Origin: a virus
Strand: one strand, 5' to 3'
IMG/VR virus record: IMGVR_UViG_2162886007_000043
Span: 1 to 26,627 of that record
Length of the DNA stretch: 26,627 nt
Shown here piece after piece: positions 521 through 26,113 of this stretch. A program made the translations under genes and the position numbers. A model generated the notes under the pieces. It was given only the letters and a program-made list of their open reading frames with translations, was not told the origin of the DNA and ran no database searches. How positions within the stretch are numbered: the stretch's first letter is position 1; the number at the start of each line of letters is the position of its first letter.

Positions 521-718
521 TTACTCCAAAATCAATTCACCATCATTAATTATAATATAACAATGTTGCTCAATATCAAAAGCAAAACAACTTAAACAAT
601 ATCTATATTGATTAGTGTGAGAACCAATAATAGCTGTCTTTGTTCCAACAGGAAGTTCTGATTGGCATTCCCTACATTTAGCTTTACGTGAAACTACAAC
701 GAACTTTAAACCTTGCAT
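521..718 (-). CDS. Small zinc-ribbon-like protein
   Basis: This 65-residue protein has two CxxC pairs, C15-x2-C18 and C41-x2-C44, separated by 22 residues, with a G and a Y between them (CRECQSELPVG ... YRYCLSCF). The spacing fits a zinc ribbon or treble-clef-type metal site. The start at ATG 718 is supported by a GAGG ribosome site ten bases upstream, which overlaps the end of the 45-residue gene. Such phage zinc fingers often bind nucleic acid or host proteins, but nothing here identifies the partner. It lies in the left-hand unit of tightly packed small genes. Confidence 0.7.
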   Translation of the reverse strand: MQGLKFVVVSRKAKCRECQSELPVGTKTAIIGSHTNQYRYCLSCFAFDIEQHCYIIINDGELILE

Positions 719-727
719 TATTAATCC

Positions 728-865
728 TCAATCAAAATAAAATTTAACTTCCCAATCACCATAATCATTTTGATAAATAAAGTATTCACACATTCCTGCA
801 ATAATACTGTTATTAATTGCAAATTCTTTTGCTTCTTCAAAAGAAGAAAATGATCTATTTCTCAT
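728..865 (-). CDS. Hypothetical 45-residue protein
   Basis: A short frame runs from ATG 865-863 to TGA 730-728, encoding 45 residues that begin MRNRSFSSFEEAKEFAI and end in the aromatic, acidic YGDWEVKFYFD. It is preceded by GGAGG nine bases upstream, an excellent ribosome site. Its ATG shares one base with the TAA of the upstream winged-helix gene (TAATG). It fills an otherwise empty gap of about 145 bases between two genes with the same tight coupling, which supports it as real. The predicted shape is one amphipathic helix followed by two strands, as in many tiny phage proteins that begin with a FxSxEEA pattern. Function is unknown. Confidence 0.7.
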   Translation of the reverse strand: MRNRSFSSFEEAKEFAINNSIIAGMCEYFIYQNDYGDWEVKFYFD

Positions 866-1626
866 TAATAATCCTCCAAATAACCATTTTGTAATTGTGA
901 CATCTGATAGATTCTCTCTCTAGCTTCTGACACACCTGATTTATATACAGAACTAAGACTACCTAATAATTGACCACTTGTCAACTTGTTTTCTGTCAAA
1001 TCATCTTGATGATACTCTACAGGGATATTCAAACTATTTGAATTATTCAATGAATTTAACATAGCAATATCACATTCATCATAATCTTGTTGTGTTACTT
1101 CATCTTCCTCTTCATGAATATCTTCTTCTTTGTTCTTCAATAAGTGTTTAAGTGCATCAGGAACACCCTTCACAACATTTGAACGTTCCTTACCTTGTTT
1201 ATCAAAACTTTCTTTCATGGCTTGTGAAACATTCGATTTAGGCATCTTTTTACCATGCTGTTCCTTACTTTTAGGTTTACTTGGTACGGTAGTGCCTGTA
1301 TTTACTTTCGTGTCACCAGAAGCTTCTGAAGAGCTTTTAGAGCTATCTAATAAATCAATTGCTTTCTTAGTTAAAGAATAATGTGTTGTTCTGTCGTATC
1401 CTTTCCCATAAGTGATTTCAATTAATCCATTTTCAATAAGTTTCTTTTTAGCACGTTGAATCTGAGATGCTGAAAACATCCCTTCTAAATCTTCTACAAG
1501 TTGTGTGTTTGTACGATATACAACTTCTCTTCCTGATGAATCTTTCCAATACTTTAAGTGACGTAATAGAACACTCGCAATGCTACCAACAATCTTAACT
1601 ACTGATGGATTTAAAATTTTAATCAT
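865..1626 (-). CDS. Winged-helix DNA-binding protein, possible replication or regulatory protein
   Basis: This 253-residue protein is the first gene after the promoter region. Residues about 1-95 look like a winged helix: helical LLRHLKYWKD, then TNTQLVEDLEG, then FSASQIQRAKKKLIENGLIE as turn plus recognition helix, then a wing around TYGKGYDRTTHYSLT. That arrangement is typical of the N-terminal domains of phage and plasmid replication proteins (DnaD-like or RepA-like) and of some phage regulators. Residues about 95-190 are a low-complexity Ser/Lys/Glu-rich linker with an acidic stretch (EEEDE). The C-terminus is short and helical. The start at ATG 1626 has AGGG upstream. A role in replication initiation or transcription control is inferred from fold and position; no replication partner gene is visible. 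Confidence 0.65.
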   Translation of the reverse strand: MIKILNPSVVKIVGSIASVLLRHLKYWKDSSGREVVYRTNTQLVEDLEGMFSASQIQRAKKKLIENGLIEITYGKGYDRTTHYSLTKKAIDLLDSSKSSSEASGDTKVNTGTTVPSKPKSKEQHGKKMPKSNVSQAMKESFDKQGKERSNVVKGVPDALKHLLKNKEEDIHEEEDEVTQQDYDECDIAMLNSLNNSNSLNIPVEYHQDDLTENKLTSGQLLGSLSSVYKSGVSEARERIYQMSQLQNGYLEDY

Positions 1627-1658
1627 TATGTTTTCCCTACAACCAACAACAGGTGTGA

Positions 1659-1687
1659 AGTTTAGTCTTGTGTTTTTTGTTTGTCAA
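1659..1687 (-). promoter_or_regulatory. Candidate sigma70 promoter for the left gene cluster
   Basis: On the minus strand a perfect TTGACA (1687-1682) is followed by a 17-base spacer and TAAACT (1664-1659), which matches TATAAT at four of six positions. The predicted transcript would begin near 1652, about 25 bases before the ATG of the winged-helix gene, with its ribosome site in between. It lies just downstream of the terminator of the tail/lysis unit, where a new promoter is needed. No upstream extended -10 TG was seen. The call rests on sequence match and position only. Confidence 0.6.
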
Positions 1688-1742
1688 TTCCCCTATAAAA
1701 GAAATATTTAAAAACTATTCTATTCCTATTAGACATTTTTCA

Positions 1743-1818
1743 ATTGTGAAATATTGAATTTTCATAAACGTAAAATTGTTATTTCGATATTGAATTATGC
1801 TTATTGTGAAATCGAAAT
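1743..1818 (-). repeat. Repeated AT-rich motifs upstream of the promoter (possible operators or iterons)
   Basis: In plus-strand terms, ATTGTGAAAT occurs at 1743-1752 and 1803-1812, and ATATTGAATT occurs at 1751-1760 and 1787-1796. The 8-base palindromic arms ATTTCGAT (1781-1788) and ATCGAAAT (1811-1818) flank a 22-base spacer. All lie between the terminator and the promoter in non-coding DNA. Repeated and inverted motifs in this setting commonly bind a regulator or replication protein, and the neighbouring gene encodes a winged-helix protein. Low-complexity AT-rich DNA can give such matches by chance, so confidence is moderate. Confidence 0.45.
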
Positions 1819-1839
1819 ATGAATAAAAACAATAGACGT

Positions 1840-1867
1840 AAAAAATCCCCACCCGAAGGCAGGGATT
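1840..1867 (-). terminator. Rho-independent terminator of the tail/lysis operon
   Basis: Read on the minus strand, a 10-base-pair stem (AATCCCTGCC with GGTGGGGATT, including two G-T pairs) closes a TTCG tetraloop and runs straight into a run of six T. The UUCG loop closed by C-G is an exceptionally stable RNA hairpin. It lies about 20 bases after the stop codon of the 1137-residue fibre gene. On the plus strand there is no T run after the stem, so it should act in one direction. Confidence 0.93.
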
Positions 1868-1887
1868 AGAATAGAAAATATTAATTT

Positions 1888-4800
1888 TTAATTAACATCT
1901 TTTAATATCTTCGATGCAGCCTGACCAAACACCAATAATCCATTTGGATTGTTGGGATGACAGTAGTCTGCTGACCAAAGCTTAGAAGACTTTTTAATTA
2001 CAATGGATGCGCCATTTGCTGGAACATTGGCATCAAAAACCAACTGATAAGGCTTAAATAAGGTTGAATCATTACTTAATGTTGGGTCGGTAATCCCACT
2101 TGCCCAGTGCATTGATAAACCGCCAGTAATACGGCATTTCTTGTGTTCAACACCATCGACTGTAACAATCCAGTCTCCCAATACATATGCCGTGCCACTG
2201 ACAGCATAAGAACTTGCCCCAGTGCTCGTTATTGTTTGATGAGTTGTCATGGTTTGTGTGTGTTGATACAAGCGAGTCGCATTATAGAAATCAACAAAAG
2301 TGATGTTGTAATCTTTTGCGATCTTTTGACCGAGCTCACGGTAGCCAAATAAACGACGATGATAGTAATTTGGGATACCACTTGTGCCGATTGCAAATTT
2401 ACAATCAGGTAAAGCAGACCAAACAGTGTCACACAATGTTTTGACTTGAGATGCCCATGTCGGTGCATTTGTAATAATTACATGTTCACCAACAAGATCT
2501 GACAACGTATTGCACTGATAGAAATCAGATGCAGAGATTGTTCGATTTAGGGTGATTGTATTAGTAGCACTGTTGTACGATTTAATCATGCGAACAGCAA
2601 CACGACTTACTTTGCCACCATAATTACCGATAGTTACAACATCACCTACTGCAATACCTGTATCTGTGATGCTTGATGCAAGCTGAATAGTGCTTTCAGT
2701 TATTGCAATGATTGGAAGCCTTGTATCTGTAACCGTCTTATTGTCAGAAGTGCCTGTAATCGTTGTGAAGTAATTACTTGAGCTATCTGCAAGGATTTGA
2801 GCATTCGTCAAACCCGATCGTGTCATAGTCGCTTTTGCTACAAATGTTTGCCAGTCATCATTCGTGCATGACTCCAACAAAACAATGTCAGGATTAAAGT
2901 TAATGACTTCACTAATCGTATTTAACTTAATAGCATGATCAATAAAGTAATCAGCCATCCAACCGCCAATACCAGCATTCATAATATGATGCATACGGTT
3001 AGTGACAAAATTCAAATCAAGATATGGAGTTGATCCAGTTGCACCAGTAGCTAAACTTTTAACAAGCAACTTAAATTTGCGAGATTTAATATCGTCAAAC
3101 TTGTATGTCACTACAGCACGACTATCTGATTGTCTAAATCCAATGCCACTTGATACAGAAGCAGGCAATGTCGTATCAAATGATACTGATCCATCCCCAT
3201 ATGCACTTTCTAAATTTGAAGTGAATCCAACTGCAACATTCCCAAGCGTTCCACGCATATGCGAAATGCTTTCACCGTAGTTGTAATTAATGTTAATATT
3301 TCCAGTTGGTGCGACTTTAAACCAGATTTGATGAGTCACTTTGTTTAAAGTGCTGTTGTACTTTCTAGTAACCATGTAATCATCTGATGCGGGAATAGTT
3401 CCACCCGCACCTTGCACATTCAAACTACCCGTCTTAGCGACACCATCTACTGTTACAGCGTGACCATATGTAAAGCATTCTTCTAGATCAAATTTGAGAT
3501 CAGCACCATTACCTGTGAATGATTTTGAACGAGTACCAAAGGGTAATGTATTTAATGTGCTGAAAGTGTCATAGAGAACATCATCTACATACACTTCAAT
3601 ATTTGCTGCGCCTGCATTACCACGCTCACGACCGATTGAGATTGATAGCTCATCACCACTTAGTGTGAATTCAGTAAAACTATTAACACCTGAAATACGC
3701 TTAGCTTGACCTAAATACCAATTTTCACCTGTCAGGGTAGTTGCTGTTTGAGCAACATCTTTAGCATGTAATGTACTTGCATATTTAGTTCGAAAATTTT
3801 GTTCAATGATACCAACAAAACTTTGCTGACCCAAATAACCCTGACCCCAAGTGATTGATGAGCCTGCAACTGCAATTCTATACGGTTTTGTAGCTAAGAA
3901 AGTTGAACTTGACTGCGTAGAGATCTGAGCAATAGCAGATGTATTTGCATCTGCAATTTCACGAGCTAATGCTAAGTTCTTAGCTGTTGGGTTGATCTTT
4001 AATGCACTATTTGCATTGTTAAGTAGCAAGCCATCGCTTAATGAATCCCAATCAATTGTCATTTTTGCAGTAAGTGCACTTGCACCAACTGGTATTAAGT
4101 CAACTGTTTGAATCCCTTTTCTCTGAACACCAAGCTCATTAAACTGCATTACAGACAGACCAGCATTATTAGCAACAAAGATGCGGTTGCCATAGCTCAC
4201 ATGGTTTTTTGCAAAAACAGATATTACAAAATATGGGTAAGCATGGGTGCCTGTTACTTCAATCCCTTTAATTGCGTACGCAAGCTTTTTGTCAGCTTCA
4301 CTTGCAATAGAGAAAGCTGTCTCATAAGTTGGAGCTAACCAAATCGGCTTATTTGTCTTAAATGGCTCAGCAACTTTTGCAGTATTTTGAGATACTTCGT
4401 TATATAAATTGCGTGCTGACTTATCGATATAAAGCCGAGATGATGAGCTAAGCGAAGCGGAAAAACCATCTGGCAATGCATCCCAATTTATCGTAGCAAA
4501 TCCTGACACTGTAGCTCCAGTTAAGGCTACGGTCTCTTGCCCTTTCTTGATAACTGTTGAGTCGGCAATATAGCTACTAACAACTGCACTGTCATCTAGA
4601 ACAAGAACACGTGAACCTAATGTACTATGGTTTTTAGTTACTGTCGCAACACGATAGTTTGTGCTCGAATTAGTGCCTGTTAAAGACAGTGCTGATATTG
4701 ATAAGGCTGCTGTTTTAAAGTCTGCCGAACTTAACAGAATGTCAGCTTTTTTGGAAAGATCTAACCAAGGTTGCTTTAACAGTATGTCTTGATTGATCAT

Positions 4801-5301
4801 GGTTACTTTTGAGTCTGTATATGCCTTTGAATCTGTCAAAGAGTCATAACCTTTTACCCAAGCCGTTCCATTATAGTAATAATCACCATTATTAGTTGCT
4901 GTTGGGTCGTTCATTACTTTAGCAACTTGACCTGTAGTCATACCTGTTGCTGCTTGTAGGTTAGCTAACGTATCAAAGGCTTTGAAGTAACCACCAGAAA
5001 CCGTACCAACTTTTGTATCTATCTCTGATTTAGTATATGTTTCCGTTTTTTTATAAACATCTGAAATATTTGCTTTAGGTGAAACAAGACTGTCTGTTTC
5101 AATTTTAGTATATGTGGTAGCTTGATCAGCTTTTAAAGAAACATCTTGTTTTGTTGCGACATCTTTAAAGTTTACCAACCAATCACGAATTGTTAAGAAA
5201 GTTACAGCATAATTGCCGTAACCTCCAGTTGGTACTTTTAAAGCATCTTGTATCTGAGATGAACTTAATTCTGGTGCATCTACAATTCTTAAATCTGCCA
5301 T
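1888..5301 (-). CDS. Large tail fibre/spike with SGNH-hydrolase domain
   Basis: This 1137-residue protein is probably a receptor-binding or glycan-modifying virion protein. Residues 1-45 form an anchor with KVPTGGYGNYAVT, closely matching the next fibre gene. Residues 50-100 are coiled-coil-like (KADQATTYTK, YTKSEIDTKV). Residues about 195-303 and 336-449 are two copies of one beta-rich module. SGNH blocks follow: AGSSITWG at 479-486 with Ser482 as probable nucleophile (the usual Asp of GDS is Ser481), NAGIGG at 775-780, CTND with Asn814, and DYCH with Asp1112 and His1115. The blocks are far apart because of large beta-rich insertions. The ribosome site AAGGAAAA precedes ATG 5301. Deacetylation of capsule or LPS sugars is the likely reaction by family analogy; the substrate cannot be read from sequence. 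Confidence 0.85.
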   Translation of the reverse strand: MADLRIVDAPELSSSQIQDALKVPTGGYGNYAVTFLTIRDWLVNFKDVATKQDVSLKADQATTYTKIETDSLVSPKANISDVYKKTETYTKSEIDTKVGTVSGGYFKAFDTLANLQAATGMTTGQVAKVMNDPTATNNGDYYYNGTAWVKGYDSLTDSKAYTDSKVTMINQDILLKQPWLDLSKKADILLSSADFKTAALSISALSLTGTNSSTNYRVATVTKNHSTLGSRVLVLDDSAVVSSYIADSTVIKKGQETVALTGATVSGFATINWDALPDGFSASLSSSSRLYIDKSARNLYNEVSQNTAKVAEPFKTNKPIWLAPTYETAFSIASEADKKLAYAIKGIEVTGTHAYPYFVISVFAKNHVSYGNRIFVANNAGLSVMQFNELGVQRKGIQTVDLIPVGASALTAKMTIDWDSLSDGLLLNNANSALKINPTAKNLALAREIADANTSAIAQISTQSSSTFLATKPYRIAVAGSSITWGQGYLGQQSFVGIIEQNFRTKYASTLHAKDVAQTATTLTGENWYLGQAKRISGVNSFTEFTLSGDELSISIGRERGNAGAANIEVYVDDVLYDTFSTLNTLPFGTRSKSFTGNGADLKFDLEECFTYGHAVTVDGVAKTGSLNVQGAGGTIPASDDYMVTRKYNSTLNKVTHQIWFKVAPTGNININYNYGESISHMRGTLGNVAVGFTSNLESAYGDGSVSFDTTLPASVSSGIGFRQSDSRAVVTYKFDDIKSRKFKLLVKSLATGATGSTPYLDLNFVTNRMHHIMNAGIGGWMADYFIDHAIKLNTISEVINFNPDIVLLESCTNDDWQTFVAKATMTRSGLTNAQILADSSSNYFTTITGTSDNKTVTDTRLPIIAITESTIQLASSITDTGIAVGDVVTIGNYGGKVSRVAVRMIKSYNSATNTITLNRTISASDFYQCNTLSDLVGEHVIITNAPTWASQVKTLCDTVWSALPDCKFAIGTSGIPNYYHRRLFGYRELGQKIAKDYNITFVDFYNATRLYQHTQTMTTHQTITSTGASSYAVSGTAYVLGDWIVTVDGVEHKKCRITGGLSMHWASGITDPTLSNDSTLFKPYQLVFDANVPANGASIVIKKSSKLWSADYCHPNNPNGLLVFGQAASKILKDVN
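3955..4719 (-). repeat. Duplicated beta module inside the 1137-residue fibre
   Basis: Codons 195-303 (4393-4719) and 336-449 (3955-4296) encode two diverged copies of one module. Shared landmarks in order are V-TGT, (K/A)NH followed by GSR or GNR, KKGQETVAL versus RKGIQTVDL, INWDALPDG versus IDWDSLSDG, and SARNL versus TAKNL. The duplication is clear at the protein level and diverged in DNA. A carbohydrate-binding or shaft role is inferred. Confidence 0.78.
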
Positions 5302-5313
5302 TTATTTTCCTTA

Positions 5314-7824
5314 TTAATATGCCATTCGACCAATTAGTTTGCTAACAATGTAATTGGCTTGCAAGATACGTCCTGCTGTGTTTGGGTGAAGACCGTCTGC
5401 TAAATACAAATGTTGACTTCCTGTTTCAAGATCACGAATAATTCCACATTCATGATGTTGATCGATAAGAGTAAATCCATACCGAAGAGCCATTTTAGAA
5501 AGACCATCAATCAAAGGGGATAATTCTGTACTGTCAGCACTTGCTCGTTGTAATGGGTTCGCATAAAAACAAACTGCATTAGGAAAGTTTTTCTTAATTG
5601 TCCAAAATGCCCAGCGTGCAGCTTCTAGTGTCTTAGTTCTATCTAGATCATTGAGAGTAGCTTTTGACATTGCTGTTTCATAATCACCTAAACTTACTAA
5701 ACCATCATTAGTACCCATTGCTGTGATAATAATGTCAGGTGTCTCCGCATTCGTAATTGCAGTATTAACTTGGTGAGACATCATTTGCCAAAGGTTAGTT
5801 TGACCATATTCTCTAAAAGCAGCACCAGATTTTGCATAGTTTCGGTACGCAGACATCTGTAATTGTTCTTTAGCATACGTAGGCCAGTTTGGAAATGGTG
5901 TGGTTGTTTCATCAAAAATACCATCATCTACACGACTTGTTTGTGTGATAGAATCACCGAAGAATAAGTATTTAGCACCAAAAGCACGAGAAACCAAACC
6001 ACCATCAGAACCAGAGCTTGCTATATCTGTTCCAAATAGAGCTTTTAAATCACCTTTAACATAAGCCTCATATGTTGTAGCTACTGAGCCACTTTCAATT
6101 TGAATAGTGTCTAAATTAAGTGACCAAGTATCGATTCCATCTTTAAGACAAATTTGGAAATAAACAGCATTTGCTGGGATGGTACTAGCAGTAACACCTG
6201 TTGCGTTAAGTAAAACAGGAGCATTACTGATCCAATTTTTATCTTTGTCTAAAAAACGATATGCTCGATATGCAACACTACTTGGTGTCAATCCACTTAC
6301 AGTAAGTGAATTCAAACCTCTAATATAAATTGGTTGAGTAGTTACACTATTGAGATGATATTGAAGAACACCCTGTGCAGTAATTCTATAGTTATATAAA
6401 AGTGGTGAACTCTTATCAAAAATATTTTTAGAAAGACTTTCAAAAACAGGCTCAACGATTGCATAAACTTGTGCTGGATCAACATAAAAGTCTGCTGCAT
6501 AAATGCTTTTTAATTTTCCTCTAATATAAGCTGTATAAGCTGTAGAAACTATTCCAACTTCAAGTTGAATTGTATCTAAGTTTAGAGTCCAAGTATCAAT
6601 ACCATCTTTTAATGTGAGTTGAAACCACATAGCATTTGTTGGTACAGTAATAACTTTAGCTGTTTGATTTAGGTCAATTGGAGCGTTACTAAGCCACTTC
6701 TTATCCTTATCAAGAAATCTGTAAGCTCTGTAAGCTTGTGTACTTGCAGTAAGACCACTAACTACAATAGAAGACATTCCTGCAACGCTTATCAAAGAAG
6801 TGGTTACACTGTTTGTATGTTCTTCTATATTACCAAATTGATTTATTCGTCTATTCATTAATAGAGGAGAATTTTTATCAAAAAAGTTTTTTGATAAACT
6901 CTCAAAAATAGGATTGATACTATTAACCGTTCTTGCATCGAAAGTAGAATCTATATCTAAATTAACAGCAGTTTTTACTAGTGTTGTTAATGCTGTGTCA
7001 TCACTAAATGTTAACCAACCAGACCACACATTTGAGGCATTTCGAAAACGATATGTAATTTTCTGAGAATTAAATGACCAAACATATTGGGCCACAACGC
7101 TAGTAGAAACAGGCATAACTAACATGTAAGCCCATTGGTTATTAAACGGTGGTTTATTAGGGCTGCTATCCCACGTTGCTCCAGAAAAGAAGTAATACAT
7201 TCCATAACCAGTAATTGTATTAAAATCTGTTGGTTCTGAAATAGGTTGTGGTTTAAATATTTTATTTGAATCAGAATAAGCTTTTGCCTGCGTTAGAGGG
7301 TCGAAAGTAGATTTTACAAAACTCGTACCATCATATTGATATAAGCCATTATTGGCACTGGTAGGATCATTTGTAATGTAAACCGAACTGTTTGCAGGGA
7401 TATTTGCCTTATCAGTATTAGCTTCAGCTAATGTCTTATATGCCTTATTACCTGTATTTGCGTATGCTGAAATTAAAGATTCAAGTTGGTCATCTAAAGA
7501 ATCAACTTCTGATTTCGTGTAAGTTGTTGCCTTGTCTGCTTTAAGGTCTAATGCTTGTTGTTGTGCTGTGCTGACAGGCTTGTTAAGATCAGAAGTATTA
7601 TCCGCGTGCTCTAATCCAACTTGATACTTAGTAACATTATGTGGATTATTTTTATTTGAAGTGTGTGAATATAACTCTTCATCAGTAGCAAAATCACCAT
7701 TAAGTTTAAAGTGTTCTGCAATTTCTCCTATTGTTACAGCGTAATCTCCGAATCCACCTGTAGGTATTTTCATTGCATCAATCGGCTTTAATGTCGGAAG
7801 GTTTTGAATTTTAATACTAGACAT
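5314..7824 (-). CDS. Tail fibre/spike with pyocin-knob-like and SGNH-hydrolase domains
   Basis: This 836-residue protein has an N-terminal virion anchor (MKIPTGGFGDYAVT, residues 18-31) shared with the following gene. Then comes a common fibre element (NPHNVTKYQVGLEHADNTSD, from about residue 60). A pyocin-knob-like segment at about 189-273 contains the typical GYGMYYF and WSGWLTF ends. Two tandem beta-rich modules lie at 307-440 and 461-594. The C-terminal SGNH domain has all expected blocks: GDSIT with Ser625, KSGAA around Gly667, GTND with Asn706, and DGLHPN with Asp810 and His813. SGNH enzymes on phage tails usually remove acetyl or other ester groups from surface glycans. GAGGAAAA precedes ATG 7824. 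This copy keeps a canonical active site, so activity is more secure here than in the neighbouring 1137-residue protein. Confidence 0.9.
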   Translation of the reverse strand: MSSIKIQNLPTLKPIDAMKIPTGGFGDYAVTIGEIAEHFKLNGDFATDEELYSHTSNKNNPHNVTKYQVGLEHADNTSDLNKPVSTAQQQALDLKADKATTYTKSEVDSLDDQLESLISAYANTGNKAYKTLAEANTDKANIPANSSVYITNDPTSANNGLYQYDGTSFVKSTFDPLTQAKAYSDSNKIFKPQPISEPTDFNTITGYGMYYFFSGATWDSSPNKPPFNNQWAYMLVMPVSTSVVAQYVWSFNSQKITYRFRNASNVWSGWLTFSDDTALTTLVKTAVNLDIDSTFDARTVNSINPIFESLSKNFFDKNSPLLMNRRINQFGNIEEHTNSVTTSLISVAGMSSIVVSGLTASTQAYRAYRFLDKDKKWLSNAPIDLNQTAKVITVPTNAMWFQLTLKDGIDTWTLNLDTIQLEVGIVSTAYTAYIRGKLKSIYAADFYVDPAQVYAIVEPVFESLSKNIFDKSSPLLYNYRITAQGVLQYHLNSVTTQPIYIRGLNSLTVSGLTPSSVAYRAYRFLDKDKNWISNAPVLLNATGVTASTIPANAVYFQICLKDGIDTWSLNLDTIQIESGSVATTYEAYVKGDLKALFGTDIASSGSDGGLVSRAFGAKYLFFGDSITQTSRVDDGIFDETTTPFPNWPTYAKEQLQMSAYRNYAKSGAAFREYGQTNLWQMMSHQVNTAITNAETPDIIITAMGTNDGLVSLGDYETAMSKATLNDLDRTKTLEAARWAFWTIKKNFPNAVCFYANPLQRASADSTELSPLIDGLSKMALRYGFTLIDQHHECGIIRDLETGSQHLYLADGLHPNTAGRILQANYIVSKLIGRMAY
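6043..6906 (-). repeat. Tandem duplicated protein module inside the 836-residue fibre
   Basis: Codons for residues 307-440 (6505-6906) and 461-594 (6043-6444) encode two copies of one beta-rich module, offset by 154 residues. Both begin FESLSKN(F/I)FDK and share VVSGLT- or TVSGLT-like turns, the near-identical AYRAYRFLDKDK, and KDGIDTW followed by LNLDTIQ. The DNA copies have diverged, so the duplication is old or under selection. The fold looks like a carbohydrate-binding jelly roll, which is inference. Confidence 0.85.
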
Positions 7825-7851: not shown

Positions 7852-9453
7852 TTATGGTATAGCTAACTCTTCAATACCTGTTGTATGTATTGTAAATACG
7901 TTACCTGAGTTCATACTTGACATTGAGCTTATAGTTTCATTTACTCCAGCAGCAGTAGCTGCATCTGAAATAATCGCCCCAGCTCTGATAGCCCAAAAAA
8001 TCAATGCAGTTTGTTCTTGTTGAGAAGCTAAAATCTTACTATTAATTTGGTTAACACCAATTGTTTTTATTTTATAATTGTCATTTGTTATGGTGAAGAA
8101 GTTTGCTGAAGTTGCTACGGTTACTGTAGGTAAAACTTTACCTTTCATCCATAACATACCACCATAACGAGCAAAATATAAATTAGTATAAGTCATATTC
8201 CAATTGGCAGGAGTTACAAACGTACCAACTTGACTATGATGTACCCAAGTAATTCCTGTAGCAGCATCAGTTACAGACTTTTGTAGTTTACCCATTGCTG
8301 TTAAAACAGTATCAGATGCAGTAATTGCACTTGCTGAAGATGGAATAGATAATCCTGTAAGGAGTGTATTACGAACAGTTGTTGCAAAATTACTTGTTAG
8401 ATTATTCAGTTGTCCTTGTAGCTTACCAAATGCTGATAGAACACTATCTGTTGCTGTAACTAAAGCATTACCAATTAACAAGTTTGTCAATAAGGTATTT
8501 TGAACTTTTGTCTCAGAGAATTGGTTTATATTATTAATCTGGTCTTGAGTTTTACCAAATGCTTGTAATACCGTATCAGAATTTGTAATTGAACCACCAG
8601 TAACAGGAACGAATCCAGCTAAGGGAGTTAATCTAACTCTTGGTTCTGTGAAATATAAATTTGTGCCTTCTGGAATCTGAGTGGTAATCGTATTATGTGG
8701 ATTACCCTGAGATTGAGAATGATCATAAGCTATCTTACCTCTATCACCACGATAAGCTGTAGCTGAAGTTTCACCTAGTGCTACTCCGCCGCCTCCAATC
8801 TCAACATAAGTTGACCCAGACCATCTATATGTTTTATTTACATCCATTGCAATGTAAATCTTACCTGATTCACCAGTTGTGGGGAAAGAAGATAAATTTG
8901 GATATTCTATGACATCATCAACAAATGATGGCAATTGATTGGCAGGAATAACACCATTAACTAAATCTGCTTTAGTTGTTAATGCTTGATTAACAGCTTG
9001 TGCATCTGCTTTTAAATCAATTTGGTCTTGAAGTAAAGAATCTTGCTGGTCTACGTAAACTTTATTAGACTTGTCGGCAATAGAAGTTGCTAATGCTTGA
9101 TCTTGTGAATCCACATAAGTTTTATTGGCTTTTAAATTAACTTGTGCAGTAATTGAAGAATCCACACTGTTTACATAACTTAAATCAGCTTTTGTGTCGT
9201 TTAAGTTGCCAATCTGATCATCGATGTCAACTCTAAGGGCATTAACACTTCCAATTGGTTCTGCACCAACATCTGAATAGTTTAAAGTAATGTGTTCGCC
9301 TGTTTTATTGTTTACACTCTGTATTCCACTTTGAGCTGTAGGGTTAGTTATCATTGCTCCAAAAGGAATAATGAATACTTTTTCACCTTCTTGGATTTGA
9401 GGATTTATATCATAAGGACTTACATCCCAATAAACTTTAATAACTGCTTCCAT
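7852..9453 (-). CDS. Tail fibre protein with coiled-coil and repeated shaft modules
   Basis: This protein has about 533 residues. I chose ATG 9453, which overlaps the upstream TGA as TGATG with AAGGA eight to nine bases upstream; a GTG one codon earlier is possible. Residues below count from that GTG. Residues 80-165 are heptad-rich and repeat KA(N/D)..YVD.QD (trimeric coiled coil). Residues 185-222 form a small fibre module (SGKIYIAMDVNKTYRW). Residues 234-275 carry the widespread AYRGDRGKIAYDH and NPHNT fibre motif. Residues 278-395 hold three copies of a shaft unit ending in DTVLxAFGKLQ. The C-terminal ~130 residues are beta-rich and probably form the tip. There is no enzymatic motif, so it is a structural adhesin or a scaffold for the SGNH fibres. 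Confidence 0.82.
   Translation of the reverse strand: MEAVIKVYWDVSPYDINPQIQEGEKVFIIPFGAMITNPTAQSGIQSVNNKTGEHITLNYSDVGAEPIGSVNALRVDIDDQIGNLNDTKADLSYVNSVDSSITAQVNLKANKTYVDSQDQALATSIADKSNKVYVDQQDSLLQDQIDLKADAQAVNQALTTKADLVNGVIPANQLPSFVDDVIEYPNLSSFPTTGESGKIYIAMDVNKTYRWSGSTYVEIGGGGVALGETSATAYRGDRGKIAYDHSQSQGNPHNTITTQIPEGTNLYFTEPRVRLTPLAGFVPVTGGSITNSDTVLQAFGKTQDQINNINQFSETKVQNTLLTNLLIGNALVTATDSVLSAFGKLQGQLNNLTSNFATTVRNTLLTGLSIPSSASAITASDTVLTAMGKLQKSVTDAATGITWVHHSQVGTFVTPANWNMTYTNLYFARYGGMLWMKGKVLPTVTVATSANFFTITNDNYKIKTIGVNQINSKILASQQEQTALIFWAIRAGAIISDAATAAGVNETISSMSSMNSGNVFTIHTTGIEELAIP
8272..8625 (-). repeat. Three tandem shaft repeats in the 534-residue fibre
   Basis: Three units of about 40 residues each contain (T/S)PLAG or TLLTxL at the start and end in DTVLQAFGKTQDQINN, DSVLSAFGKLQGQLNN and DTVLTAMGKLQKSV. 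Heptad-like spacing after FGK suggests a helical segment in a trimeric shaft. Confidence 0.82.
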
Positions 9454-9800
9454 CACGTAATTCCTTTAATCACTCTAAAGCTAAAGTTATGTGAATGTCT
9501 AACCTCATCTGAGATGGTAATTTTTAAATCTAAGGTTGCTATTCCAATTTTCCAAAGTGAAGTTTGACTACTTGGAACAGATAAAAGAAAGAACCCAGAA
9601 TCTGCAACTTGATCTGTATAAGGTGAAATTATTGGAGAGCTAATAACTGTTCCTACTGAATTTACAATTTTACAATCAATTGTTATATCAGGGGTGATTG
9701 GAATTCCTACATTATTTGTTTGATCAAAAAATCTCATTGGAATATTAAAGCTATCACCAATTTTAAATAATGGTAAATCTGTACTACAATTGATTGTCAT
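9453..9800 (-). CDS. Small beta-rich protein, possible fibre adaptor
   Basis: This 115-residue protein starts at ATG 9800 with AAGGTGG upstream and ends at a TGA that overlaps the start of the next fibre gene, indicating coupled translation. The sequence alternates short hydrophobic strands (FNIPMRFFDQ, ITIDCKIVNS, ATLDLKITISD, HNFSFRVIKG) with polar turns, in the way of an immunoglobulin-like sandwich. The pattern resembles small BppU-N-like proteins of phage baseplates, but I cannot assign a family. Its place directly before a fibre gene suggests an adaptor between fibre and baseplate, or an assembly helper. No signal peptide or membrane segment is visible. Confidence 0.65.
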   Translation of the reverse strand: MTINCSTDLPLFKIGDSFNIPMRFFDQTNNVGIPITPDITIDCKIVNSVGTVISSPIISPYTDQVADSGFFLLSVPSSQTSLWKIGIATLDLKITISDEVRHSHNFSFRVIKGIT

Positions 9801-11120: not shown

Positions 11121-12296
11121 TTATTTAACTCTTATTAGTGTAACAAAGGCTATATTTTTAGGACGTGTCTCGTCTCCCATTACATTAGGGTTTTCTTCAT
11201 TAGGATCAGCACCTTGATAAACTTCTCCATCATTTGTATACCAAAGGTAGTTATCATTATCTAAACCACCACTAGAGCCTTGGAACCCTTTGTTACTTGA
11301 TTTACCAAACAACCCAGCAGTTTCATATGTTTCACCTAGTTGTTGAATATGCTTGTGCTTTTCTACAGTATCTTCTTGAATTGTTCCAAGCTCACGACCA
11401 GAATCAATTCCTTTACCATTATCCCATTCACGCTCAAACAAACCACGTTTATCTGGTAGATTGAAAGTAGTGCTACCATCACCAGCACCAAACCTAGTTC
11501 CGATACGTTGGAATAGGATTGGATATAGAGTTCGGCTAACAGCTTGTCCATGTGCATACATTAATCGGTCTGAAGGAACAACTTGATCTGAGTAGGAAAT
11601 CATAGCTCCGATTGGAAGAATTTCATCCATTACTTGAGATATCAACGACTGAACCCACTGTGTAGTTGCTGTTGCTGAACTGTTTTCTGTTAAAGGTGGA
11701 TTAGCAGAGCCAAACGTAGCAACTATCTGACCATCATTTAAAATTACTGATTTGTCACCATCATGGAATAATCCGTCATTTTGATGAGCTTTAAATGAAA
11801 AACCAAAGTTATCATCCCCAGTATCTGTTAGTCCAACAGCAGCAAGATAACCATTACCTGAAACCTTTCCGTCAACTTCAGGGGTTGCTTTTGACACATA
11901 AAGATCGAGATATCCATCTTCAGTTTTAATCTTGTTTATTTCTTCAGTTAGATCAATAACTGAAGCATTACTTGCCCAAGCAATAACCCAAAAACTAGAA
12001 CTCTCTGGTAAATCTGGTTGCTCGTTGATATTCTGTGTAAGTGCTTTATAAACATTCCCAGAGTAGGCTATGTGGGCATTAACTGGATATTCAGTTGAGT
12101 TATCCCATTCAGGAACACCATTCTGCATTAAGTATGCAATAGCAACATCTTGTCTATTCTCAATAAAGTTAACAAGTTCATATTTTGGTTTTTCTACAAC
12201 ATGACCTTGTTCAATCTTCTCTGATGTTGGTTGTATAATATTCCCGTTATTTGCCCAAACACCGTTGTTGTAATTTGGTTTAGTGTAAATTGTCAT
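11121..12296 (-). CDS. Tail fibre with phage tail-collar domain
   Basis: This 391-residue protein begins with a fibre anchor (residues 1-60, including KIEQGHVVEKPKYELVNF). A chitin-binding-like segment follows at 64-107 (W...TEYPVNAHIAYSGNVYKAL ... SSFWVIAW). A middle beta region contains a typical fibre shaft sequence. At about 226-315 there is a tail-collar domain (PF07484 type): LPIGAMISYSD, then LYPILFQRIGTRFGAGDGS, TTFNLPDKRGLFERE, and HKH at 313-315. Such collar proteins are short tail fibres on the baseplate. It directly follows the DUF2612 baseplate gene, where the first fibre gene of myovirus tail clusters usually stands. AAGGAA precedes ATG 12296. Confidence 0.9.
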   Translation of the reverse strand: MTIYTKPNYNNGVWANNGNIIQPTSEKIEQGHVVEKPKYELVNFIENRQDVAIAYLMQNGVPEWDNSTEYPVNAHIAYSGNVYKALTQNINEQPDLPESSSFWVIAWASNASVIDLTEEINKIKTEDGYLDLYVSKATPEVDGKVSGNGYLAAVGLTDTGDDNFGFSFKAHQNDGLFHDGDKSVILNDGQIVATFGSANPPLTENSSATATTQWVQSLISQVMDEILPIGAMISYSDQVVPSDRLMYAHGQAVSRTLYPILFQRIGTRFGAGDGSTTFNLPDKRGLFEREWDNGKGIDSGRELGTIQEDTVEKHKHIQQLGETYETAGLFGKSSNKGFQGSSGGLDNDNYLWYTNDGEVYQGADPNEENPNVMGDETRPKNIAFVTLIRVK

Positions 12297-24742: not shown

Positions 24743-26113
24743 TTAAGAAACGTAAACTTCTCTAGCAAAAGACATTCTAGTAATTGCATTAATTGTTATG
24801 CTTAATCCAGCATCAGAACCAGACATAGCAACTTCTAAGATATAACCACTTGGAGATGGGATGCTATCATTATCAGCAATAGTTATTAACTCATCTGCAA
24901 ACGTTCCAGCAGATAAGTTATTTGCTAAAGTTATTGCCTTGACATAAGTAAATCCGCTTACAGGATTTCTAATTCTTAATGTTAATACTTCAGGGCTTGT
25001 TGCAGAGGTAGATTTTCCGCTAAACGATCCTTGTATTCTCCAACCATGTACTTGTCCCATAATTGGGTTTTCAATTAATCTTCCTGTTGGAGAAGTTCCT
25101 CGGTTAGCATCAAAGAAACCAGCATATGAATTTGGGGTTGCTTTAGGGTATGTTGTAGTTGGAGAAGCAACTACAACTGGTGTAGCTGTAACAATGTCAA
25201 ATGTTTTATAAGTATTTGCTGTAAAATTGCTTAATGATAATCCAGTGTAAGTAACTTTAACTTGTCCTGCTTGTGTTGATAAAGCATCTAGCTGTGCTTG
25301 AGTTTTACCGAAAGCTTGTAGAATAGTATCGGTAGCAACTACATCTGTTTTTGTTGCTAAGTTTAGCCCTGTTAATGGAGTTGCTCTAACATCAGCTTGA
25401 CTAACTGTAACAGTTAAAGGTGTAGCTAAATCTGCTGTTGCAACAAGACCTGTAGCGCTAATATAACCTGTTGTTGGCTTTGTTCCAGTTCCTCCAATCC
25501 AATCAATCACACGTATTACTTGTTGAGAGCTTGAATTATTAGCAATTGCTAAAACGGGATCCCAACCATTCTCACCAGAACTTCCTTGAATGCCTTGATC
25601 GCCTTTATTTCCTTTGATATTAACAGCATCAGCGATGTTAGTTACTAAACCACTTACACCAATGTATCTATTAGATGCTGGAGGTGTTCCTGTGCCGCCT
25701 GTCCAACCTGTAATCTTTACAACCTTACCGCCACTTCCATTGTCTACCAATGCGTAAATAGCACTCCAACCGTTAGTACCGTTCGTTCCATTTGTTCCGT
25801 TAGTACCAGCAGCGCCTTTTAAGTTTGCTGAGGATGTTCCTGAGCCAGAAGTAATCGTAAGTGTTGTACCATTCCAAGAGTGTGTGGCAGAAATTCCGTT
25901 TGTACCATTAGCTCCATTTTGACCTGCTGGGCCTTGAATTCCCTGATCTCCCTTTTCCCCTTGAACATTCTCTACCATCCAAAATTGAAAAGTATCTCTT
26001 GGAAGTAACTGTGCTTTACCGTCATTAATAATGACAAAACTATCGTTATTTGTAAATTCAGTGCTTGGGATGATAGGTAAGTCTGCAATATTAATTTCAG
26101 CCATAATTGACAT
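24743..26113 (-). CDS. Collagen-like fibre protein between neck and sheath genes
   Basis: This 456-residue protein has an anchor-like N-terminus (INIADLPIIPSTEFTNNDSF). Three Gly-X-Y collagen blocks lie at about 52-74, 100-115 and 168-183. Two related ~45-residue modules follow them, at 115-156 and 183-222, both GW...A.., then W.GGTGT.P and GLV. A shaft repeat at 243-278 ends DTILQAFGKTQ, and a C-terminal beta domain from about 285 has a jelly-roll look. The start is either ATG 26113 or ATG 26104; GAGG lies close to the first. The gene overlaps the upstream stop by 17 bases. It is probably a trimeric virion fibre or a neck/whisker decoration. Confidence 0.78.
   Translation of the reverse strand: MSIMAEINIADLPIIPSTEFTNNDSFVIINDGKAQLLPRDTFQFWMVENVQGEKGDQGIQGPAGQNGANGTNGISATHSWNGTTLTITSGSGTSSANLKGAAGTNGTNGTNGTNGWSAIYALVDNGSGGKVVKITGWTGGTGTPPASNRYIGVSGLVTNIADAVNIKGNKGDQGIQGSSGENGWDPVLAIANNSSSQQVIRVIDWIGGTGTKPTTGYISATGLVATADLATPLTVTVSQADVRATPLTGLNLATKTDVVATDTILQAFGKTQAQLDALSTQAGQVKVTYTGLSLSNFTANTYKTFDIVTATPVVVASPTTTYPKATPNSYAGFFDANRGTSPTGRLIENPIMGQVHGWRIQGSFSGKSTSATSPEVLTLRIRNPVSGFTYVKAITLANNLSAGTFADELITIADNDSIPSPSGYILEVAMSGSDAGLSITINAITRMSFAREVYVS
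25280..25387 (-). repeat. Shaft repeat shared with another fibre gene
   Basis: Codons 243-278 of the collagen-like gene encode RATPLTGLNLATKTDVVATD followed by TILQAFGKTQAQLDAL. The same unit occurs three times in the fibre gene at 8272-8625 (for example ASDTVLTAMGKLQ and NSDTVLQAFGKTQ), about 16 kb away. Each unit probably forms a beta turn plus a coiled-coil helix in a trimeric shaft. Confidence 0.75.
25565..25960 (-). repeat. Collagen-like triplet blocks and duplicated knob module
   Basis: The region encodes three Gly-X-Y runs: GEKGDQGIQGPAGQNGANG, GAAGTNGTNGTNGTNG and GNKGDQGIQGSSGENG. The middle one is a repeated GTN at the protein level, seen in DNA as an almost perfect 9-base repeat near 25770-25800. 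GDQGIQG is present in the first and third blocks. Between and after them stand two copies of a short GW-to-GLV module. Such runs expand and contract easily by recombination. Confidence 0.85.

Follow-up and report, generated by a model that had tools for sequence, protein, structure and literature searches.

Paired tail spikes and spike-borne esterases have both been described in phages. The two-tailspike locus of Acinetobacter phage TaPaz encodes gp78 and gp79 (PMC8228797), and as of 2024 it was reported to be the sole member of its group in which both spikes are complete (PMC11126041). The bodies of these spikes are pectate-lyase-like or glycosidase depolymerases. As for esterases, gp41 of Aristophanes is a tailspike deacetylase that takes O-acetyl groups off the K26 capsule (PMC8471582), and two SGNH fibres of Klebsiella prophages have esterase activity on a model ester (PMC13123978); the latter article also cites deacetylation of LPS by G7C gp63.1. 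In Klebsiella prophage KPS3995-contig_8, both TSP1 and TSP2 harbor SGNH domains (PMC12115436). Furthermore, receptor-binding proteins (RBPs) can be assembled into a branched complex, as in CBA120 (PMC8825819). Dual spikes in the TaPaz group, tailspike deacetylases and paired SGNH spikes are thus already published, and the locus described here is a sound, mostly ordinary variation on the two-spike layout. What is new is a predicted esterase–esterase pair in a TaPaz-type array and a family of putative SGNH enzymes of the GSS type.

The window, which means the whole stretch of DNA analyzed here (26.6 kb; 26,627 nucleotides), is equal in length to the entire virus record IMGVR_UViG_2162886007_000043, which is probably a piece of a larger phage. 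Because the record is probably such a fragment, we can only infer the host, which would be Acinetobacter, from the resemblance of the phage to known Acinetobacter viruses. The minus strand holds a contractile-tail module, and its baseplate proteins, endolysin and downstream replication proteins match those of Acinetobacter phages TaPaz, B9, BS46, and Phab24. Core proteins are 34–80% identical to those of TaPaz in tblastn comparison. Within the TaPaz group, identity is about 76–80% for the endolysin (80% for TaPaz), 57% for gpJ, 52% for gpI, and 39–52% for the downstream replication protein (52% for TaPaz), with a DNA identity of 64–68%. TaPaz, B9, and BS46 have their genes in the same order (endolysin, slot 1, slot 2, replication gene), and synteny at the spike locus extends to Phab24, Ab3, and Ab5; as in the TaPaz array, two adjacent spike genes lie between the endolysin and replication genes. 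An exception to this synteny is a pair of genes intervening between the endolysin and slot 1, encoding a 534 aa fibre (7852–9456, minus strand) and a 115 aa protein (9453–9800, minus strand); none of the compared TaPaz-group phages has an annotated gene there. The minus strand also encodes a 391 aa tail fibre (11121–12296) that matches the Collar and short-tail-fibre receptor-binding domains of Pfam and, weakly, CBM_5_12, and a 456 aa collagen-like fibre (24743–26113) whose start, INIADLP, resembles the spike anchors described below and hints at a third user of this anchor style.

The initial annotation had marked two neighbouring fibre genes, and the boundaries it gave are exact: an 836 aa ORF in slot 1 (5314–7824, minus strand) and a 1137 aa ORF in slot 2 (1888–5301, minus strand) are both intact and lie in one operon, separated by a 12-base gap and each preceded by its own ribosome-binding sequence. 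Directly past slot 2, a terminator-like hairpin with a 10-pair stem, a TTCG loop and a T-rich tail is found at 1844–1867 on the minus strand, although a scan of the window gave no more hairpins than shuffled sequences, so that this call is weak by itself. Similarity between the two proteins is limited to their N-terminal ~195 residues (31% identity, E=1e-16), which comprise an anchor, a stalk and a knob module with the NDPT..NNG motif. The knob module, noticed earlier as a small common element NDPT..NNG.Y.Y.GT, is indeed present in both proteins and by itself is 41% identical over 69 aa. With such values over both the whole region and the module, the N-terminal likeness is not due to chance. 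Behind the knob the proteins part, as had been proposed: no significant similarity was found between their central regions, and in the SGNH domains similarity is confined to the surroundings of the catalytic blocks. Each central region has its own tandem duplication, with copies 60% identical in the 836 aa protein and 28% identical (E=2e-14) in the 1137 aa protein. The unrelated bodies, together with the anchors orthologous to two different slots, rule out a recent duplication of one spike. The knob is widespread among Acinetobacter phage spikes, including those of Phab24, SWH-Ab-1, PD-6A3, and Aristophanes, and also occurs in other podophage spikes and in the distant relative L027; it is therefore an exchangeable module and no mark of this pair. 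In L027, the spike (529–5016, minus strand) has a PTGG anchor and a GDS...DxxH set by motif with no Pfam match, and two genes past it there is a pectate-lyase-like spike without a PTGG anchor. For both spikes, structure models of the N-terminal regions are of low confidence. Sequence searches of PDB gave no convincing match for either spike; weak matches to NadA and GCN4 fusions fit a trimeric stalk and are not evidence for it. A plasmid search found no relatives of the spikes.

One anchor had been assumed to be shared by both spikes. The N-termini are related, having PTGG(Y/F)G(N/D) as a common core and being 40% identical across 48 aa, but they belong to two distinct types, orthologous to those of the gp78 and gp79 slots of TaPaz. 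Over these 48 residues, the anchor of the 836 aa protein (7681–7824, minus strand) is 54–77% identical to slot-1 anchors, including those of TaPaz, B9, BS46, and Phab24, versus 36–46% to slot-2 anchors. That of the 1137 aa protein (5158–5301, minus strand) is 44–48% identical to slot-2 anchors, reaching 63% across the N-terminal 35 aa of TaPaz gp79, versus 31–43% to slot-1 anchors. The best tblastn anchor matches in TaPaz and Ab3 are the genes at the corresponding positions. In a tree of 16 anchors, a single branch parts slot 1 from slot 2 in 90% of bootstrap trees, to be read with a short alignment, moderate support (78/89) and long branches, including that of the 1137 aa anchor. Since both anchors are orthologous to positionally fixed types in the relatives, the spike pair is older than this phage.

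The occupation of the two slots varies. Both are filled by complete spikes in TaPaz, while B9, BS46, Ab3, and Ab5 have one spike plus a 256–291 aa protein bearing the slot-2 anchor without a recognized enzyme. Three of these four short proteins are exactly 291 aa long, so that they may be functional rather than products of decay. The Phab24 slot-1 spike has the anchor nearest to that of the 836 aa protein (77% across 48 aa and 65% across 185 aa) and likewise carries an SGNH-superfamily esterase, but of a different family (Pfam SASA), and its slot-2 product, of 257 aa, lacks the PTGG anchor. In phiAB441, slot 1 encodes only 100 aa and slot 2 is complete. In the MD-2021a record only slot 1 is present and a slot-2 anchor protein was not found, which rules out that both anchors are always required.

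These patterns bear on how the two spikes would be mounted. The suggestion that they compete for the same baseplate site, as alternative ligands giving mixed particles, is improbable: the common anchor core and the single operon with separate ribosome-binding sequences would suit it, but throughout the TaPaz group each of two fixed gene positions keeps its own anchor type, and it would make little sense for several relatives to retain a short slot-2 protein without a recognized enzyme as a mere competitor. Conservation of two types at fixed positions makes two docking positions, one per anchor type, the likelier arrangement, for which the sequences argue without giving proof. A branched complex, with one spike on the baseplate and the other docked onto the first as in G7C or CBA120, is also rather unlikely. 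The pair does resemble gp63.1 and gp66 of G7C, which are reportedly neighbouring RBPs that are related at their N-termini and of which one is an SGNH esterase. Branch-point proteins, however, are known to bear additional N-terminal docking domains, whereas the N-terminal parts of both spikes here are alike and short, with an anchor, a stalk and one knob, and the slots are truncated or missing independently of each other in phiAB441 and MD-2021a. With two docking positions, each spike would attach to the baseplate of the virion through its own slot-specific anchor and, judging from what is known of such families, would probably be a stalked homotrimer.

The slot-1 spike consists of the anchor (aa 1–48, with PTGGFGDYAVT at 21), stalk, knob (about aa 115–195, 7240–7482, with NDPTSANNG at 152), a tandem beta module (copy 1, aa 303–445, 6490–6918; copy 2, aa 457–600, 6025–6456) and a C-terminal SGNH hydrolase domain (aa 619–826, 5347–5970), all on the minus strand. 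Blocks I, III, and V of the latter occur in order as GDSIT at 623, GTND at 704 and DGLH at 810–813, giving S625, N706, D810 and H813, and the Pfam scores are 47.9 bits for PF13472, over its cut-off of 32.9, and 41.5 bits for PF00657. Spacing is compact, with about 44 residues between blocks I and II and about 105 between III and V. The structure model of the protein is poor (pLDDT 43). Its body (aa 185–836) is 77–78% identical to a lone SGNH fibre in two prophages, L007 and L008, and the surroundings of the L007 fibre share 93% identity with Acinetobacter phage 5W; SH-Ab 15599 gp197 also matches at 42%. A single genome (IMG 2651869784) carries two prophage records, L007 and L048, with relatives of this body at 77–78% and 62%, respectively. 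A genome-collection scan with the 836 aa protein gave a sole match, to a short N-terminal/stalk segment in a Lachnospiraceae bin. Aristophanes gp41 has a knob of the same type (56% identity across 72 aa) and, as is predicted for the slot-1 spike, is an SGNH esterase, but Aristophanes is a podophage with a single spike, and tblastn gave no match to the body.

There is a more complicated architecture in slot 2. Behind the anchor (PTGGYGNYAVT at 24), stalk and knob (aa 107–173, 4783–4983, with NDPTATNNG at 131), a different tandem beta module (copy 1, aa 176–299, 4405–4776; copy 2, aa 318–443, 3973–4350) is followed by an SGNH domain of the GSS type (aa 475–1137, 1891–3879), again on the minus strand. 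The motif sets, GDS/GTND/DxxH in slot 1 and GSS/CTND/DxxH in slot 2, and the nucleophile serines at 625 and 482, are located where the initial annotation had them. In the 1137 aa protein, GSSITWG starts at 480, CTND at 812, and DYCH covers 1112–1115. The catalytic Ser, Gly, Asn and Asp/His are in order and conserved: block I (G480, S481, S482), G777, G779 and G780 of block II (G777–G780), and N814 of block III are invariant in 13 of 13 aligned sequences, and D1112 and H1115 of block V are kept in all 12 that reach these positions. GSS had been set apart from the canonical set, but with this invariance it is the signature of its own SGNH family and not a degenerate form. About 297 residues separate blocks I and II, and about 300 separate blocks III and V. 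Starting at residue 475, the predicted structure is of mostly good confidence (pLDDT 70–95 except short stretches such as 486–488 and 704–721) and has what appears to be an SGNH core split by three beta domains. According to the secondary structure of the model and the homologues, the first is inserted between block I and block II (about aa 510–775, 2977–3774), the second past block III (about aa 820–945, 2467–2844) and the third ahead of block V (about aa 1018–1105, 1987–2250), all on the minus strand. The domain scores 24.5 bits with the Pfam GDSL model, under the curated cut-off of 32.9, which is a detection threshold and not a biochemical definition; 8 of 13 family members match the model at E<=0.01. 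The C-termini of both spikes thus appear to be SGNH domains as proposed, over the Pfam cut-off in slot 1 and by 13-sequence conservation and fold model in slot 2.

The substitution of GSS for GDS and the weak Pfam score might instead point to a catalytically dead, binding-only SGNH lectin in slot 2. This is very doubtful, because the Asp of GDS is itself no catalytic residue in SGNH enzymes, and Ser482, Gly779, Asn814, Asp1112 and His1115 are kept in relatives down to 25% identity. Foldseek matches of the slot-2 enzyme, with modest scores, include the peptidoglycan O-acetylesterase Ape1 of Neisseria and Campylobacter (PDB 4k3u and 8gld), CE2 acetyl esterases and CBM36-type modules. The match to Ape1 has E=5.9e-4, prob 0.99, and a TM-score of 0.34 by target, with large inserts. 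Ape1 and CE2 esterases are among the best fold matches and, as predicted for the slot-2 enzyme, combine an SGNH domain with extra beta-sandwich domains, but they have 325–375 residues and about 7% identity, and their motif is GDS, not GSS.

Relatives of the 1137 aa protein were not found by single-query and genome-collection scans and emerged only through a scan with the SGNH core followed by alignment-based scans. The GSS-type family with three inserted beta domains was then found at 17 viral-contig loci, and a metagenomic phage protein in BFVD (A0A8S5NF96) matches the slot-2 model over its full length (E=2e-39). With the window copy and two relatives as queries, tblastn detected no GSS enzyme in 50,697 deposited phage records, and no PHROG covers it; the window copy has a single PHROG match, which lies in the stalk. 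The family is widespread in phages and is given no name by the searched libraries. At 49% identity, the slot-2 body matches L032, whose adjoining tail genes resemble those of Acinetobacter phages AbTJ and Ab105-1phi, and further relatives are fibres from viral records that differ in composition (GC 35–65%). In one genome (IMG 2784132037), two prophage records, L028 and L029, each encode one SGNH fibre of the GSS type, and the N-termini of the two differ. A motif screen of the loci examined for a second spike detected no second large ORF of the G[DS]S-type SGNH.

Taken together, we consider it quite likely that the two proteins form a two-slot spike array, filling slots 1 and 2 of a TaPaz/B9/BS46-like Acinetobacter myophage, and that both are O-acyl esterases of capsule or LPS. 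The paired SGNH esterase fibres proposed earlier find support in the conserved catalytic residues of both proteins, the Pfam match in slot 1 and the fold model in slot 2. Each body was probably gained by domain exchange right behind the knob module, and the duplicated modules are probably carbohydrate-binding. Because both bodies carry a duplicated module and then an SGNH serine esterase, the phage most likely binds capsule or LPS and strips O-acyl groups, probably O-acetyl, from it at adsorption. The enzymes come from different SGNH lineages and would probably act on different glycans or at different positions; the different central modules also suggest different targets, so that two glycans or two acetylation states are plausible. 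A bolder scheme holds that the slot-2 enzyme belongs to an undescribed, widespread family of phage serine esterases (GSSxTWGxG, three inserted beta domains), that its substrate is of another kind than the known capsule O-acetyl groups, and that it acts sequentially with the slot-1 esterase on the same glycan; we give it little credence.

Compared with TaPaz, the window has the same gene order, two slot-specific anchors, two complete enzymatic spikes and bodies resembling host or prophage proteins, and differs in having a knob module, the two extra genes and, by prediction, an SGNH esterase in place of a depolymerase in both bodies. KPS3995-contig_8 is likewise a case of two spikes per phage with SGNH domains in both, but it is an unrelated phage with two SGNH domains in one spike. 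The window adds a second case of two complete spikes to the TaPaz group, and among those seen in this analysis it is the first for which an esterase is predicted in both. The GSS-type SGNH family is an uncharacterized group of candidate phage polysaccharide esterases. The conserved slot-1 and slot-2 anchors offer a ready test for whether dual spikes use two baseplate positions, and the putative esterase pair is relevant to the question of how several hosts are covered by capsule-modifying phages that form no depolymerase halos.
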